Translations under genes and position numbers: made by a program
Assembly: GCA_902474785.1 (NCBI GenBank)
Contig: CABRXB010000075.1
Coordinates: 1 to 6,181, forward strand
Length of the DNA: 6,181 nt
Origin: an uncultured Eubacteriales bacterium
GTDB lineage: Bacteria; Bacillota; Clostridia; Oscillospirales; Feifaniaceae
Reading direction: 5' to 3'
Shown here: positions 121 through 6,181 of the stretch, in pieces
Layout: each line of letters begins with the position of its first letter
How positions within the stretch are numbered: the first letter of the stretch is position 1
Notes under the pieces: model-generated
Seen by the model: only the letters and a program-made list of their open reading frames with translations
Databases searched by the model: none
What the model was told of the DNA's origin: nothing

Positions 121-149
121 TTGACATCCTCATTGGAGAGTGCTATCCT
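121..149 (+). promoter_or_regulatory. Sigma-A type promoter with extended -10, driving the operon
   Basis: The -35 box is a perfect TTGACA at 121-126. A 17-nt spacer leads to TATCCT at 144-149 (4 of 6 matches to TATAAT), preceded directly by TGC at 141-143, which is an extended -10 (TGn). Transcription should start near 155-157, inside the inverted repeat at 151-166 and about 30 nt before the TTG start of the regulator gene. It is the only good plus-strand promoter I see in the window, so it probably drives all five genes. The start point is inferred from spacing only. Confidence 0.8.
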
Positions 150-150
150 T

Positions 151-166
151 GGAAAGTAAACTTTCC
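151..166. promoter_or_regulatory. Probable operator: perfect 16-bp inverted repeat over the transcription start
   Basis: GGAAAGT-AA-ACTTTCC is a perfect palindrome with 7-bp arms and a 2-bp centre. It begins two bases after the -10 box and covers the expected transcription start, where a bound dimer would block RNA polymerase. The next gene encodes a small XRE helix-turn-helix protein, a family that often represses its own gene through such short palindromes. The repeat itself is seen directly; its role as the regulator's binding site is inferred. Seven-base arms with a 2-bp loop make an RNA hairpin or terminator function unlikely. Confidence 0.7.
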
Positions 167-174
167 ATAAAGAC

Positions 175-185
175 AGGGGGGAGGG
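175..185 (+). promoter_or_regulatory. Ribosome binding site that selects the TTG start at 188
   Basis: The purine run AGGGGGGAGGG ends two bases before TTG at 188-190, and its GGAGG core (180-184) has a usable, somewhat short spacing to that start. It argues for TTG over the in-frame GTG at 140, which lies inside the promoter spacer upstream of the expected transcript start and could not be translated from that mRNA. Confidence 0.7.
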
Positions 186-187
186 CG

Positions 188-388
188 TTGAAAAACAACC
201 TGGAACAACTGCGCAAGCAGCGCGGCATCAAGCAGGAAGAACTGGCGACGGTGTTGCGCGTGTCGCGGCAGACCATCGGATCGCTTGAAAACGGACGATA
301 CAACCCCTCCATCCTGCTGGCCTTCAAGCTGGCCCGCTACTTTGGGCTGACCATCCAAGACATCTTCATCTACGAGGAGGAGTCTTAA
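188..388 (+). CDS. Small XRE-family (Cro/CI-like) transcriptional regulator, 66 aa
   Basis: A DNA-binding protein made of little more than one helix-turn-helix domain, probably the repressor of this operon. With TTG at 188 as start it has 66 residues. Helix 1 is about residues 4-12 (NLEQLRKQR). The helix-turn-helix covers about 16-35, with KQEELATVL as the first helix and SRQTIGSLENG leading into recognition. The following YNPSILLAFKLARYFGLTIQDIF is split here as YNPS (38-41), then the core LAFKLA and the end IQDIF (56-60). This matches the short COG1476-type regulators common in Firmicutes, usually 65-70 residues. A longer in-frame reading from GTG 140 would add 16 unrelated residues (MLSLESKL...) and start within the promoter, so I reject it. 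The gene ends one base before the next start. No ligand or sensor domain is present, so any signal must come from a partner, possibly the membrane protein encoded next. Confidence 0.9.
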   Translation: MKNNLEQLRKQRGIKQEELATVLRVSRQTIGSLENGRYNPSILLAFKLARYFGLTIQDIFIYEEES

Positions 389-389
389 C

Positions 390-836
390 GTGAAAAAATC
401 CGTCTTGTACACGGGCCTTGCCCTGCTCATCTGCGGACTGATCTGCTGTGCCGCGGCCTCCTTTGGCGACTTCGCCTACACCGGCTTTCTGTGGGGGCTG
501 ACCGGCGCAGGGCTGGCCTGCGGCGTCGCCACGCTGTTTACCTACTGGTATTATCAGGATCCCAAACGCTCCGAGCTCTACGAACGACACATCGAGATGA
601 AAAAAATTCTGCTGGAAGACGAGCGGCGTATCATGCTGCGCGACAAGGCGTGTTACTACACCTTTTGCTCGCTGATCCTCTTTGAATGTGTGTGCATCGT
701 CGTCTTCTCGCTGCTGGCCACCTTTGGCATCTGTATGCCCTTTAGCCGCTCCATCGTGGTCATTCTAAGCGCCCTTGTGCTGCTTCACCTGATCTACAAT
801 CTTGTGGTGTTCCACTGGTTGAGCCGCAGATTGTAA
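390..836 (+). CDS. Four-helix, cysteine-rich membrane protein paired with the XRE regulator (DUF2178-like)
   Basis: An integral membrane protein of 148 residues with no recognised catalytic motif. It starts at GTG 390 behind a strong GAGGAGGAG (374-382), one base after the regulator's stop, so the two are probably translationally coupled. Predicted membrane helices lie at about 4-23, 30-54, 88-112 and 120-144. Between helices 2 and 3 is a charged cytoplasmic segment (about 56-87) containing DERRIMLRDKA, which resembles the conserved loop of the DUF2178 family that commonly sits beside small XRE regulators; this assignment is from memory. Nine cysteines (15, 19, 20, 44, 88, 93, 100, 102, 115) are many for its size, most in or near membrane helices. 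Position suggests a sensor or anti-repressor that controls the regulator according to membrane state or pump substrate, but this is inference. It could equally be an accessory protein of the pump. Confidence 0.75.
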   Translation: MKKSVLYTGLALLICGLICCAAASFGDFAYTGFLWGLTGAGLACGVATLFTYWYYQDPKRSELYERHIEMKKILLEDERRIMLRDKACYYTFCSLILFECVCIVVFSLLATFGICMPFSRSIVVILSALVLLHLIYNLVVFHWLSRRL

Positions 837-899: not shown

Positions 900-2153
900 A
901 TGAAAAAAAAGCTGATCTCTCTGCTCTGCGCCCTGTCGCTGGCCGCGCTCACCCCGCTTTGCGCGCTGGCCGACGACGCCTCAGAGCCGGCCCCCCTGTC
1001 TGCCGACCCCGCCGACGCGCCGGGCACGCTGTCGTTTGAACATCTGGAACAGCGCGTGCGCGAGGGCAACCTCACCATGCGCTCTGTGGACGAGAGCATG
1101 GCAAGCCTTGACGCCATGGATCGCAAGCAGGCCTACGACACGCTGCTTGAAGCCCACAATTCCATGACCGACATGCTCTTCAACTATGCCAAGATGGGCA
1201 ACATCTACGCAGGTTCCGGCGAGGCCGGCTCCTTTGGCGCGCTGTATACCCAGATGGACGCCGGCTACAGCGCCGCCTATCTCTCGGCCCAGCAAGAGCA
1301 AATGCGCGCGCAGCTCGACGCCCTCAAGCCCGAGGAATATGAGAAGACCTACAGCGAAGCCGTGTGGCAGATGGAGACCAGCCGCAACCAGATCGTCTAC
1401 GGCGCCCAGACGCTTTACATCACCACGCTCTCGCTCGAGCGCTCCCTGTCCGACGGACAGCGCGGCCTTGCCGCCCTCGACCGCACCGTGGCCGAGATGG
1501 AAAAACGCTTTGAGCTTGGGCAGATCTCTCAGCTCACGCTGCTCGAACTCAAGAAAACCCGCACCGAGACTGCCAGCAGCCTGACCTCTCTCTCGCTTCA
1601 AATCGAGCGGCTCAAATCGCAGCTCTGCGCCCTGGTGGGCGAGAGCCTCACGCAGACCTGCACCCTTCTGCCCCTCCCTGCCGTGACCCAAGAGCAGCTC
1701 GATGCCATGGACATCGAGGCCGACCTCGCGCTGGCCAAGGAAAACAGCCTTGCCCTCTATTTGCGTCAAAAAGAGGTCGACGACGCCAAGGAGAAATGGG
1801 AAGACGCCTCCTCCGGCTATCAGAAGGACATGGCCGAGCACGACTACAACGCCATTGTCTACTCCAAAGACGCCGCCATCCAGAGTTTTGAGCTCTCCTT
1901 TTTGAATCTGTCGCGCACGGTGACCGACAACGCGCAGCTTCTTGAAGCGGCAAAAGAGTCGCTGGCCTTTGAGCAGCAAAACCATGAAGCCGCCCTTTTG
2001 AAGCACGAACGCGGAATGATCTCCGACAACGAGCTGGCCACGGCGGACGAGGCGCTCGAGGCCGCCCGCTCGAAGGTGTCTGCCTGCTCCGACAGTCTGT
2101 TGAGCGCCTACAACAACTATCAGTGGGCCATGCGCGGCATCATCAACGAATAA
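900..2153 (+). CDS. TolC-family (outer membrane efflux protein) duct component, apparently without barrel strands
   Basis: The duct component of a tripartite efflux pump, 417 residues, exported. ATG at 900 follows AAAGGAG (884-890) with good spacing. Residues 1-24 form a Sec signal peptide: KKK, a hydrophobic core, then ALA before Asp25. No lipobox is seen (Cys21 is preceded by TPL). The mature part is almost wholly helical and shows the two-fold repeat of the OEP family. Repeat 1 ends with RFELGQIS (Gly207) and a long helix to ALVG (247); repeat 2 has HERGMISDNEL (Gly372) followed by a helix to the C terminus. These correspond to the VGL...TDV turn and following helix of E. coli TolC, at the periplasmic tip that meets the adaptor. 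Mature length is about 393, against about 471 for E. coli TolC. At the places where TolC has its barrel strands (about 140-180 and 300-340) I see charged, helix-like sequence. The adaptor and permease genes follow directly, supporting the role. Confidence 0.8.
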   Translation: MKKKLISLLCALSLAALTPLCALADDASEPAPLSADPADAPGTLSFEHLEQRVREGNLTMRSVDESMASLDAMDRKQAYDTLLEAHNSMTDMLFNYAKMGNIYAGSGEAGSFGALYTQMDAGYSAAYLSAQQEQMRAQLDALKPEEYEKTYSEAVWQMETSRNQIVYGAQTLYITTLSLERSLSDGQRGLAALDRTVAEMEKRFELGQISQLTLLELKKTRTETASSLTSLSLQIERLKSQLCALVGESLTQTCTLLPLPAVTQEQLDAMDIEADLALAKENSLALYLRQKEVDDAKEKWEDASSGYQKDMAEHDYNAIVYSKDAAIQSFELSFLNLSRTVTDNAQLLEAAKESLAFEQQNHEAALLKHERGMISDNELATADEALEAARSKVSACSDSLLSAYNNYQWAMRGIINE

Positions 2154-2171: not shown

Positions 2172-3290
2172 ATGAATCATGCAAAATCATCTTCTGTTGC
2201 GATGAAACTGCTGACGCTTGGCGCCGCGTTGTCCCTGCTGCTCGGCTGCTCCCCCGCCGAGCCGGTTTCTGCTAATCCCTCCGAGCCCGTTGGCACCCCC
2301 GTGCAGGTGTCCACCGTCACCCACGGCGACATGGCGGCGCAGGCGCGTCTGTCCGGCAAGGTGGCCGCGGCGCGCGACGTGCCCATTCTGGCGCCGCTCA
2401 CGGCCAAGGTCACGGCCGTCTATGTGCGCGTGGGCGACCATGTGGAAAACGGCCAGGTGCTCTTCTCACTGGACAAGAGCGACCTTCAGACCTCCTACAA
2501 CTCGCTGTCAAACGACTATGCACGCACCAAGGATTTGCTGACAGCCCAGGTGGAGCAGGCGCAAAACAACTACGACAATACCGCCGCCCTGCTCGAAATT
2601 GGCGCTGCCTCCCAGGTGGAGCTCGACGCCGCGCGTGTGACGCTGCTCTCGGCCCAGACCTCCATGGCTTCGACCTTGCAACAGCTCGAGGACAACCTCA
2701 AAACACTGCGCGACACCCTGGCCGACGCCGATGTCAAATCCACCATTGACGGCACGGTTTCGGCCCTGTCTGTGGTGGCCGGCGCCATGGCCACCCCGAC
2801 CTCTCCCGCTGCCATGGTCAGCGAGGGCGGCTCCCAGGTGACCGTCTCGGTGTCCGAGGCCGTGCAGCCCTATCTCACGGTGGGAGACACCGCGCAGGTT
2901 GTGATCTCCTCTGTCTCCGCCGAGCCCGTTTTGGCCACCATTCGCACCGTCTCCCCCGCCGCCGGCGCCATGACGCAGCTCTTCGACGTGGTGCTCGATT
3001 TGCCGGAGCAGACGGCCGCCACCGCCGGCATGTTTGCCACCGTCACCTTCGAAACCGAGCGCCGCCAGGATGTGGTGCTCATCCCGACCGAGGCCATTTT
3101 GAACGATGGGGTCTCCCAGTCGGTCTTTGTCGTGGAGGAGGGCGCCGCCAGCCAGCGTGTGCTGACCACGGGTCTTGTGGGCGACGGCGTCACCGAGGTT
3201 CTCGAGGGATTGACCGGCGGCGAGCAGCTTGTCGTCGTGGGGCAAAGCTATCTCACCGACGGCGCCGCCGTGCGCATCGTGGAGGGCTGA
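2172..3290 (+). CDS. RND periplasmic adaptor (membrane fusion protein, HlyD/AcrA type), lipoprotein
   Basis: The adaptor linking permease to TolC-like duct, 372 residues. ATG at 2172 lies 18 bp after the previous stop with AAGAGGAA upstream; ATG 2202 (Met11) is a less likely start. The N terminus is a lipoprotein signal with lipobox LLGC, lipidation at Cys26, so the protein is anchored to the outer face of the cytoplasmic membrane. Domains: lipoyl half 1 at about 60-101 (VPILAPLTAKV, VGDHVENGQVLFSLD), alpha-hairpin at about 104-186, lipoyl half 2 at about 187-208 (STIDGTVSAL), beta-barrel about 222-295, and membrane-proximal domain about 300-370 (IPTEAIL near 304-310). At the hairpin tip, NTAALLEIGAAS aligns with the AcrA RLS motif that contacts TolC: Leu140 and Ser147 match, while the Arg is Asn136. 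The downstream permease starts four bases after the stop, so the subunits are co-produced. Confidence 0.93.
   Translation: MNHAKSSSVAMKLLTLGAALSLLLGCSPAEPVSANPSEPVGTPVQVSTVTHGDMAAQARLSGKVAAARDVPILAPLTAKVTAVYVRVGDHVENGQVLFSLDKSDLQTSYNSLSNDYARTKDLLTAQVEQAQNNYDNTAALLEIGAASQVELDAARVTLLSAQTSMASTLQQLEDNLKTLRDTLADADVKSTIDGTVSALSVVAGAMATPTSPAAMVSEGGSQVTVSVSEAVQPYLTVGDTAQVVISSVSAEPVLATIRTVSPAAGAMTQLFDVVLDLPEQTAATAGMFATVTFETERRQDVVLIPTEAILNDGVSQSVFVVEEGAASQRVLTTGLVGDGVTEVLEGLTGGEQLVVVGQSYLTDGAAVRIVEG
3281..3286 (+). promoter_or_regulatory. Ribosome binding site of the permease, inside the adaptor's last codons
   Basis: GGAGGG lies within the last codons of the adaptor gene, 8 nt before GTG 3295. It fixes GTG as the permease start, which gives the short cytoplasmic N terminus (MKIAEF) normal for RND permeases, and points to translational coupling across the 4-nt gap. 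Confidence 0.7.
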
Positions 3291-3294
3291 CACA

Positions 3295-6181
3295 GTGAAA
3301 ATTGCGGAATTTTGTATCAAGCACAAGGTGACAACCTCGCTCGTCTTCATCATCATCGTCATCTTCGGTCTCACGGGATTTTCCAGCCTGTCGCTGGCCA
3401 TGTTGCCCAACATGGAGTTTCCCATGGCGGTGGTCTACGCCGTCTATCCCGGCGCGGGCCCGCAGGAGGTGGAGGAACTTGTCACAAGGCCGCTGGAGTC
3501 GGCCTGCGCCACCGTGTCGGGCATGGAGGAGCTCACCTCGAGTTCCTCTGAAAACATGAGCATGGTCATGGTCACCTTTTCAGACGGCACCAACATGGAC
3601 ACGGCCGCCCTCAACCTGCGCGAAAAGATCGACCTTGTGAAGTCGAGCCTGCCCGACGACTGTCAGGCCCCCACCGTCATGACCATCAACCCCGACATGA
3701 TGCCGGTCGCGGTCTACGCTCTGACAGGGCGCGACCTGGCCGATTTGCAAAATCTGGCGGAGGACGTCTTCTCCCCGGCGCTTGAGCGCGTGGAGGGCGT
3801 CGCTTCGGTCGAGGTGTCTGGCGGCGTGGAAAGCGAGATCGCCGTTGTCACCTACGCCGACCGTCTGGCGGGCTACGGCCTTTCGGTCTCCTACATCTCC
3901 AACATCCTGTCGGCCAACAACATGATGATCCCGGCCGGCACCGTGCAAAACGGTTCGGGCACCCTGTCGGTGCGCACCGATGCGCAGTTCTCCTCCATCG
4001 ACGACATCCGCGACACGCTCATCCCCCTGCCGACAGGCGGCAGCGTGCGCCTGGGCGAGCTTGCCGACGTCCAGTTGACCCGGCAGGACGCCACCGCCAT
4101 GGCAAAGGTCAACGGCGAGGCCTGCGTGCTGCTCACGCTCAACAAACAGTCGGACGTCAACACCGTTACGGTGTCGCGCGCTGCGCAAAAGTCCATGGAG
4201 AAACTGCGCGCCGACTATCCGGCCGTGGCCGTCACCTCGGTCATGGACCAGAGCGACTACATCGACCTCTCGGTGGACAACGCCGTGCAAAACATCGTGC
4301 TGGGTGTGCTTTTGGCCGCCATGGTGCTGCTGCTCTTTCTGCGCGACGGCGGCGCCACCACCGTCATCGCCATTTCGATGCCGGTCTGCATCATCTCGGT
4401 ATTTCTGCTCATGCAAATTCTCGACATCACGCTCAACATGATGAGCCTGGGAGGGCTTGCCATGGGTGTGGGCATGATTGTCGACAACTCCATTGTGGTG
4501 CTCGAGAACATCTTCACCCACAGGGCCGACGGCAAGAGCCGTTGGGAGGCCTGTATCGAAGGGTCGGCTGAGATCTCCCTTTCGATCACCGCCTCCACGC
4601 TGACCACCGTCGTTGTGTTTTTGCCCATCGGGTTGACCTCCGGCCTCTCGGGTCAGATCTTCCGCGACTTCTGCCTGACCATCGCCTCGCTGCTGCTCTC
4701 GTCGCTCTTCATCGCGCTCACGCTGGTTCCCCTGCTGTGCTACTCTCTGCTCGACCGCAAGGGCAAGGGCCAGCAGCGTCTGATCGCAACCGCCAGCGGG
4801 CAAAAAACCGGGTTTGCACAGCGCTTCATGGATCGCTATCGCAAGACCCTGGCGTTTCTGCTCAAAAAGCGGTGGGTGGCCGTCTGCGTCTCCCTGGCGC
4901 TTGTCGTCTTCTTTGGCGCTGTTTCGGCCTCGGTCGGGGCGGAGCTGCTGCCCGACATGGATCAGGGCTCTGTCTCCATCAATGTCTCCATGCCGCTTGG
5001 CAGCGAACTCGAGGAGACTGCCGCCATCTCCGACCGCATCTCTTCAATCATCATGGAAAACGTGCCCGAGCTCGACGAATTTTACTACTCCGCCTCCGAT
5101 TCCTCCTCGTCCTTTGTGGTCAACTTAGTGGAGCTCAGGCAGCGCGACCGCTCGGCGCATGAGATCGGCGATGCGCTGCGCGAGAAGCTCTCCGACATCG
5201 CCGGCTGCGTTGTCACGGTGGACAGCTCGGGCATGATGGGCATGGTGTCCGGCAATGAAATCTATGTTCAACTGACCGGCGACGACTACGACCGCCTGTC
5301 GGGACTTGCCGATCAACTGGTTGCGCGCATCGCCGCCCTGCCCGACGCCGTCGACGTCGAGAGCTCGGCCTCCGAGCGCACCCCGCAGGTCAACATCGCT
5401 GTCAACCGGCAAAACGCCGCGCGGTTCGGCCTGACGGCCGCCACCATCGGCTCGGCTGTGCGCAGCGAGCTGACCGGCACCACCGCCACCACCCTCAAAC
5501 TAGGCGGCAACGAGATCGACATCTCGGTCAAGGGCGACGCCGTCTCCGCCACCTCCCTTGACGCACTCAAGGCCATGCCCATCTCCACCTCCTACGGCAA
5601 TATCCCGCTCGAGCTGGTGGCGGATGTGACGGTGGAGCTGGCGCCTTTGTCCATCACGCGAAGCAACCAAAGCCGCGTCATCACCGTGACGGGCAACACC
5701 CTCTCGGGCGACGTTGTGGCCATGACCCATTCCATTCAGGGCATTTTGGCCGACTTCCCACTGCCCGAGGGCTACTTTGCCGACACGGGCGGCTCCTATG
5801 AGGACATGAACGAGGCCTTCTCCACCCTGGGCCGCGCCCTGCTCATCGCCGTGGGGCTTGTCTACTTTGTGCTGGCCAGCCAGTTTGAATCCTTCCTGAT
5901 GCCGGTCATCATCATGATGGTGCTGCCCATCGCCTTTTTGGGCGGCATCTTCGGTCTGCCGCTCACCGGCAACAAGATCTCGATGGTGGCCATCATCGGC
6001 GTCATCATGCTGGCCGGCGTCGTGGTCAACGCATGCATCGTGCTGGTTGACTACATCAACATCAGGCGAGGCCGAGGCGAGGAGAAAGACGAGGCCATCT
6101 TAAACGCCTGTCCGCGCCGCGTGCGCCCCGTGCTCATGACCACGCTGACCACCATTTTGGGCCTGCTTCCCATGGTCTTCT
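3295..6181 (+). CDS. RND-family efflux permease (HAE1/AcrB-like), 3' end cut by the window
   Basis: The proton-driven inner-membrane pump. GTG 3295 opens a frame that runs unbroken to the window end: 962 residues seen, with some 60-90 probably missing (family length about 1,020-1,050). Membrane helix 1 is at about 12-34, followed by MLPN and the hallmark YPGAGPQEVEELVTRPLE (51-68). Then come periplasmic domain 1, helices 2-6 (about 332-485), helix 7 (about 527-547), periplasmic domain 2, helices 8-10 (about 846-922, with ASQFESFLMPV after helix 8) and the start of helix 11. Helix 12 is outside the window. Proton-relay positions by hand alignment to AcrB: Asp407 is Asp397, Asp408 is Asn398 (IVDNSIVVLEN), Lys940 is Asn912, Arg971 is Arg942 and Thr978 is Thr949. 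Such changes are, from memory, common in non-proteobacterial RND pumps. Substrate cannot be told from sequence; the family exports drugs, detergents, lipids or peptides. It is probably a homotrimer with the adaptor and duct encoded upstream. Confidence 0.95.
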   Translation, partial: MKIAEFCIKHKVTTSLVFIIIVIFGLTGFSSLSLAMLPNMEFPMAVVYAVYPGAGPQEVEELVTRPLESACATVSGMEELTSSSSENMSMVMVTFSDGTNMDTAALNLREKIDLVKSSLPDDCQAPTVMTINPDMMPVAVYALTGRDLADLQNLAEDVFSPALERVEGVASVEVSGGVESEIAVVTYADRLAGYGLSVSYISNILSANNMMIPAGTVQNGSGTLSVRTDAQFSSIDDIRDTLIPLPTGGSVRLGELADVQLTRQDATAMAKVNGEACVLLTLNKQSDVNTVTVSRAAQKSMEKLRADYPAVAVTSVMDQSDYIDLSVDNAVQNIVLGVLLAAMVLLLFLRDGGATTVIAISMPVCIISVFLLMQILDITLNMMSLGGLAMGVGMIVDNSIVVLENIFTHRADGKSRWEACIEGSAEISLSITASTLTTVVVFLPIGLTSGLSGQIFRDFCLTIASLLLSSLFIALTLVPLLCYSLLDRKGKGQQRLIATASGQKTGFAQRFMDRYRKTLAFLLKKRWVAVCVSLALVVFFGAVSASVGAELLPDMDQGSVSINVSMPLGSELEETAAISDRISSIIMENVPELDEFYYSASDSSSSFVVNLVELRQRDRSAHEIGDALREKLSDIAGCVVTVDSSGMMGMVSGNEIYVQLTGDDYDRLSGLADQLVARIAALPDAVDVESSASERTPQVNIAVNRQNAARFGLTAATIGSAVRSELTGTTATTLKLGGNEIDISVKGDAVSATSLDALKAMPISTSYGNIPLELVADVTVELAPLSITRSNQSRVITVTGNTLSGDVVAMTHSIQGILADFPLPEGYFADTGGSYEDMNEAFSTLGRALLIAVGLVYFVLASQFESFLMPVIIMMVLPIAFLGGIFGLPLTGNKISMVAIIGVIMLAGVVVNACIVLVDYINIRRGRGEEKDEAILNACPRRVRPVLMTTLTTILGLLPMVF

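Follow-up and report, generated by a model that had tools for sequence, protein, structure and literature searches.

The 6,181-nt stretch of DNA analyzed here (hereafter, the window; contig CABRXB010000075.1, from an uncultured Eubacteriales bacterium of the Feifaniaceae) carries a compact cluster of five genes, all on the plus strand, which, judging by their spacing, likely form a single operon. The third of these genes (900..2153, +) encodes a 417-aa TolC-like protein (PF02321, score 33.1 bits, cut-off 22) with an all-helical predicted structure and a TolC fold that apparently lacks the outer-membrane beta-barrel, likely the exit duct for the products of the next two genes, an RND-type adaptor (2172..3290, +) and an RND transporter (3295..6181, +, continuing past the window end). 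We consider it quite probable that this TolC-family protein, predicted to be barrel-less, ducts the substrates of the neighboring RND pump out through the wall of what is likely a single-membrane Clostridia cell. Our confidence is high that the protein is the barrel-less duct of an RND pump, and about even for its exact seat in the wall, a location that we infer.

The PF02321 match falls into two OEP stretches, each with its tip turn. The turn of repeat 1 is marked by G207 (1518..1520, +) in the motif RFELG, which corresponds to RFNVG in TolC, and that of repeat 2 by G372 (2013..2015, +). These glycines are present in 187 and 186, respectively, of 188 aligned sequences, which comprise 151 database proteins (including the duct's own database copy, P0001, and many near-identical entries) and 37 frames from related loci. 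Both repeats had been read from the sequence in the preliminary description of this DNA, with turns at the same two glycines, and the alignment bears this out. In relatives with 35–64% identity, the tip glycines, the residues next to them and the order of the genes have been conserved. At its N-terminus, the protein has a signal peptide without a lipobox (residues 1–24; 900..971, +; cleavage between ALA and DD, placed by eye), followed by an acidic, proline-rich linker (residues 25–41; 972..1022, +) that varies in length among the aligned relatives and is modeled with a predicted local distance difference test (pLDDT) score below 50 up to residue 36; residues 25–48 have a net charge of −6. Neither a lipobox nor an LPxTG signal was found in the duct sequence, in agreement with the initial reading, and among the 151 database relatives a loose lipobox pattern occurs in one and LPxTG or NPxT in none. 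At residue 250 (1647–1649), the window encodes Leu, but P0001, listed as 100% identical, has Pro. Separately, large proteins that look permease-like on inspection are encoded at three loci (L030, L040 and L043; frames of 639 to 975 aa). The OEP profile picks up their coiled-coil part, making them false friends in counts of TolC proteins by PF02321.

Structure prediction was carried out with AlphaFold for two monomers, the window duct and its relative P0100, and neither model contains a strand of at least three residues. In the model of the duct (mean pLDDT 83.6), the only extended contact is a two-residue bridge (43–44/255–256), and a structure search ranks TolC structures closest to this model among solved ones; a sequence search of the PDB with the duct gave no match at E values up to 1, so the match to the TolC fold rests on predicted models. 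Long helical hairpins with tip turns are thus predicted in a TolC fold, and the four strands per protomer of outer-membrane factors (a 12-strand barrel in the trimer), which the preliminary description had also taken to be absent, are lacking in both models. Taken with a shortened repeat-2 segment (see below), the predicted models and the glycine spacing indicate a barrel domain that is wholly or partly missing, as in the type described in PMC8809574.

The first pair of barrel strands in TolC is replaced in the model by a helical hairpin (residues 75–141; 1122..1322, +), consisting of helices 75–105 and 121–141 joined by loop 106–120, and followed by the long helix of repeat 1 (residues 144–205; 1329..1514, +). 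The length of this region varies in the family: residues 75–143 make up 69 positions here, against a median of 51 and a 95th percentile of 91. Where TolC has its second strand pair, the model leaves a four-residue loop (residues 303–306; 1806..1817, +) before the long helix of repeat 2 (residues 307–370; 1818..2009, +). Of the two barrel sites initially proposed, at residues 140–180 and 300–340, the latter fits this loop, whereas the former lies mostly within helix 144–205, the place of the barrel being taken by the hairpin ahead of it. The accompanying claim that no alternating polar/apolar strand pattern is present proved unusable as a test: a scan of beta and alpha moments did not single out TolC's own barrel segments, one of the two scoring alpha above beta, and was dropped as uninformative.

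The shortening is most directly seen in the distance between the two tip glycines, which is 165 residues in the duct, compared with 218 in TolC, 208 in CusC and 208 in MdtP, all from E. coli. Both glycines, at a spacing of 154–175, are found in 185 of the 188 aligned sequences, and the shortening is therefore a property of the clade, in which the repeat-2 segment is 33–64 residues shorter than in the three E. coli ducts. When the duct is aligned to E. coli TolC by profile, the extra residues of TolC fall at about duct residues 299–316 (probability 40%, E 0.0003). The top-scoring OEP stretch spans positions 91–187 of the profile in the duct and 2–187 in TolC. Repeat 1 shows no net shortening, the predicted hairpin lying where the first strand pair would be. 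Overall, the mature duct is 78 residues shorter than TolC (393 versus 471). The preliminary description had equated a deficit of 75–80 residues with the four strands, but this agreement is coincidental: by hand arithmetic on the glycine positions, with cleavage after residue 24 placed by eye, 61 residues are lost from the stretch after the second glycine and 53 from repeat 2, and 36 residues are gained in the part that runs up to G207. A more distant OEP protein of 692 aa (L031:1111-3186, G016:C47) carries an unassigned extension of about 200 residues beyond its second repeat; with its tip glycines about 238 apart, it is not obviously barrel-less.

The genes around the duct bear out the assignment to a pump. 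Profile searches place an RND permease (PF00873, 726.5 bits) and an RND-type adaptor, or membrane fusion protein (TIGR01730, 176.5 bits against a cut-off of 94.9), next to the duct gene, which is the gene set of a tripartite RND pump, and encoding of the duct together with an adaptor and a cytoplasmic-membrane transporter is also the arrangement of the monoderm Firmicute TolC-like proteins of PMC8809574. The adaptor carries a lipobox (LLGC) with cysteine C26 (2247..2249, +) present in all 36 aligned adaptor frames, and a hairpin tip (residues 136–147; 2577..2612, +) in which G144, A145 and A146 are likewise found in 36/36 frames and L140 in 97% of them. The first gene of the cluster (140..388, +) encodes an Xre-type helix-turn-helix regulator (PF01381, 64.9 bits), its start being that of the mechanical open reading frame, so that the true start may lie further in. 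The second (390..836, +) encodes a 148-aa membrane protein, with hydrophobic stretches recognized by eye, that matched no Pfam family, has a homologue at the equivalent place in loci L001 and L003, and may act as a sensor for the regulator. The order of regulator, membrane protein, duct, adaptor and RND transporter is identical in L001, from a Clostridia metagenome-assembled genome (duct identity 78%); locus L002, from a genome named Candidatus Galloscillospira, starts at the duct (77% identity) and continues with adaptor and RND transporter; and in Agathobaculum massiliense (L004; duct identity 30%) two ducts are accompanied by an adaptor and an RND transporter. Such tandem pairs of differing TolC-like duct genes occur in 6 of 57 related genomes (L004:8434-9981 and 9968-11248; G005, G006, G007, G008 and G038), with a partial pair in G010, and possibly give rise to hetero-oligomeric ducts.

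In AcrA/TolC, the adaptor and the duct meet tip to tip. By analogy, the duct would trimerize as TolC does, and the adaptor, lipid-anchored in the cytoplasmic membrane, would dock with its hairpin tips on the tip turns of the duct. The RND pump would load the resulting channel, and the helical tube would carry the substrate outward through the peptidoglycan. The far end of the duct would then sit in the zone of the wall or S-layer, which would replace the bilayer as the outer seat, the protein being held in place not by a lipid bilayer but by protein contacts and the adaptor.

A duct of this kind would suit a cell without an outer membrane, as proposed in the preliminary description, and both the strandless models and the gene content of relatives support this. 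Across 57 related genomes (G001–G003, from the nearest loci, and 54 of Agathobaculum's family), neither Omp85 nor LpxC was matched in any, whereas the controls were positive in 7 and 4 of 14 genomes, respectively; LptD and TamB were not searched for. Across the class, none of 291 genomes had an Omp85 match above the cut-off, and one (G170) had a match below it. The host is therefore likely a single-membrane Clostridia cell.

The family profile of the duct matched 32 of the 57 genomes, 31 of them at E <1e-40. SLH domains are present in all 31 genomes with such a strong match, and the published correlation with the S-layer is thereby reproduced without gaining force, given that they are present in 55 of the 57 genomes overall. 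A more specific connection emerged in another clostridial branch, where barrel-less TolC proteins are linked, physically and genetically, to the SLH wall-anchoring system. A 591-aa protein of genome G098 (L098/L108, G098:C41:3183-4955) combines two SLH stretches (104.5 bits) with two OEP stretches (76.7 bits), and P0153 and P0154 share this architecture at alignment identities of 36% and 35% to the G098 protein. In all three, which are divergent cases and distant relatives of the window duct, SLH is N-terminal and the glycine spacing is 168, a barrel-less value; G098 itself has no Omp85 match. Among the best 120 of 362 hits, precomputed SLH and OEP domains coincide only in P0153 and P0154, apart from the query's own copy P0152, and in a sample of 198 genomes from the order of G098 (six candidates scored per genome) only G098 matches across both halves, among the matches listed. 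Omp85 was likewise unmatched in 21 of 21 genomes picked from this order survey for their duct match.

Elsewhere, the two functions are neighbors rather than fused. In four loci from the order survey (L138–L141, from G370, G360, G351 and G126), an unfused duct gene lies directly 3' of a gene for a large SLH protein (823–913 aa), and in three of the four a second SLH gene follows the duct, in two of them after an intervening 147-aa frame; in the fourth, the contig stops at this point. The upstream genes include an S41 peptidase in each of the four and a CTP synthase in three, and Rho is encoded downstream in two, as judged by Pfam on the representatives L138 and L139 and by similarity for the others, and adaptor or RND homologues were not detected in these four stretches. 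Two further loci, L144 and L145, have adaptor-like neighbors, L145 also RND-like frames, and the ducts of all eight loci L138–L145 show spacings of 167–168. The class-wide survey, in which six candidates were scored per genome and 41 of 291 genomes matched, was used solely to find loci; at least G129, G243 and G260 match there in the N-terminal part only.

Several observations count against a duct that crosses the wall of a single-membrane cell. We infer the wall placement for a protein without a wall-binding domain, and the SLH association does not discriminate, because SLH is also found in 24 of the 26 genomes that lack a strong match to the duct. By similarity, no SLH frame was found in the flanks of L001–L004, two of these loci being short (L002 spans 10 kb and L003 3 kb). 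The barrel-replacing hairpin has block pLDDT values of only 48–83 in the window model, the equivalent hairpin of P0100 reaching 89–93, and residues 92–141 came out slightly beta-like in the moment scan (beta 0.23, alpha 0.17). In the relative G011, the OEP match spans nearly the whole profile (6–183 of 187). Finally, the host is taken to lack an outer membrane on the strength of relatives whose genome completeness is not stated.

Where the duct ends is the point on which the alternatives differ most. It could form a pore embedded in the S-layer, the location proposed for C. difficile (PMC8809574), instead of merely crossing the wall. Besides this published proposal, the co-occurrence of SLH with every strong family match and the fusions and SLH-adjacent ducts of the other branch point in this direction, but SLH is too widespread in the 57 genomes for its presence to say much, and the window duct lacks an SLH domain, nor was an SLH frame found near its closest relatives. 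The CWB2 domain anchors the S-layer proteins of C. difficile. It was found in none of the 57 related genomes, and we regard a pore in the S-layer as a real possibility toward which we nevertheless do not incline. Alternatively, the duct might stop short of the surface, held by the adaptor only, opening inside the wall and mainly completing or gating the RND pump. The invariant lipobox cysteine and strongly conserved tip residues of the adaptor, together with a duct that itself carries neither lipid anchor nor sorting signal, are consistent with such an arrangement, which we find rather doubtful: an OEP protein has been reported from a Gram-positive surface proteome (PMC4137172) and a TolC-like protein from C. 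difficile secretomes (PMC8809574), and retention of the linker and the outer helical hairpin, though variable in length, argues for an outer contact.

Two further explanations concern the nature of the cell and of the gene. Helical outer-membrane pores exist, as exemplified by Wza, and the helical hairpins that occupy the place of the barrel strands might cross a cryptic outer membrane of the host in the same manner. This is very improbable, given the lack of Omp85 and LpxC matches in all 57 relatives and the properties of the hairpin itself: its helices are hydrophilic (grand average of hydropathy −0.49 and −0.47), which speaks against bilayer insertion, and the maximum 19-residue hydropathy beyond residue 25 of the duct is only 1.07. 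Even less credence can be given to the idea that the gene merely persists as a relic of a diderm ancestor and that the duct no longer functions. In diderm Firmicutes, OmpM and efflux genes do share an envelope locus that monoderms lack (PMC5007114), but a relic would decay, and the conservation of tip glycines, neighboring residues and gene order at 35–64% identity is at odds with this.

A duct through the wall of a single-membrane cell invites an evolutionary scenario, which we put forward tentatively, at slightly less than even confidence: TolC was turned into a wall-anchored duct after loss of the outer membrane, leaving monoderm Clostridia with three-part pumps in which helical caps replaced the barrel, and SLH domains fused to the duct in some lineages took over the anchoring role of the bilayer. 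What is at stake is why TolC-type ducts persist in cells with a single membrane, and where they end. Clade-wide loss of the barrel with the tube and docking tips retained, together with the SLH fusions, raises the question whether the wall or S-layer has become the new outer barrier for pump discharge, with a bearing on how envelope machines can outlast the change from diderm to monoderm.

In the open-licence PMC literature, searched in part, no report of SLH::TolC fusions was recognized, and only two papers on TolC-family proteins in Gram-positives were. One lists, from the surface proteome of the Gram-positive Desulfotomaculum reducens, an OEP-family protein along with proteins of the HlyD family (PMC4137172). 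The other (PMC8809574, 2022) reports 12 TolC-like proteins in monoderm Firmicutes, many of which share an operon with genes for an adaptor and a transporter; for the C. difficile protein, a Phyre2 homology model shows an omission within the barrel domain, the modeled barrel domain being hydrophilic. That study also notes that monoderm Firmicutes have no BAM and do have S-layer genes, and offers the S-layer location as a hypothesis; its main text, figures and supplements aside, does not contain the words Ruminococcaceae or Oscillospir-. A barrel-reduced TolC-like protein in monoderm Firmicutes is thus already published for C. difficile, and the window duct shares with those proteins its secretion, OEP domain, adaptor and transporter neighbors and predicted barrel reduction. 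It differs in what is available for comparison, namely, two AlphaFold models with a helical hairpin instead of strands and a shortening measured across 185 relatives. Most noteworthy here are the clade-wide measurement, the hairpin and, above all, the SLH fusions. Compared with E. coli TolC (PDB 1EK9 and others), the models lack barrel strands, the glycine spacing is 165 instead of 218, and 61 fewer residues follow the second tip glycine. OmpM, which combines SLH with a porin (PMC5007114), resembles the SLH::TolC fusions in joining SLH to an outer-membrane protein family; however, OmpM ties the outer membrane to the wall, whereas the fusions have barrel-less spacing and the host G098 has no Omp85 match. 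The mycobacterial MmpS5L5 (PMC12501195) is likewise described as an efflux pump with a helical exit tube, but its coiled-coil tube is part of the pump, whereas here the tube is a separate protein of the TolC family.
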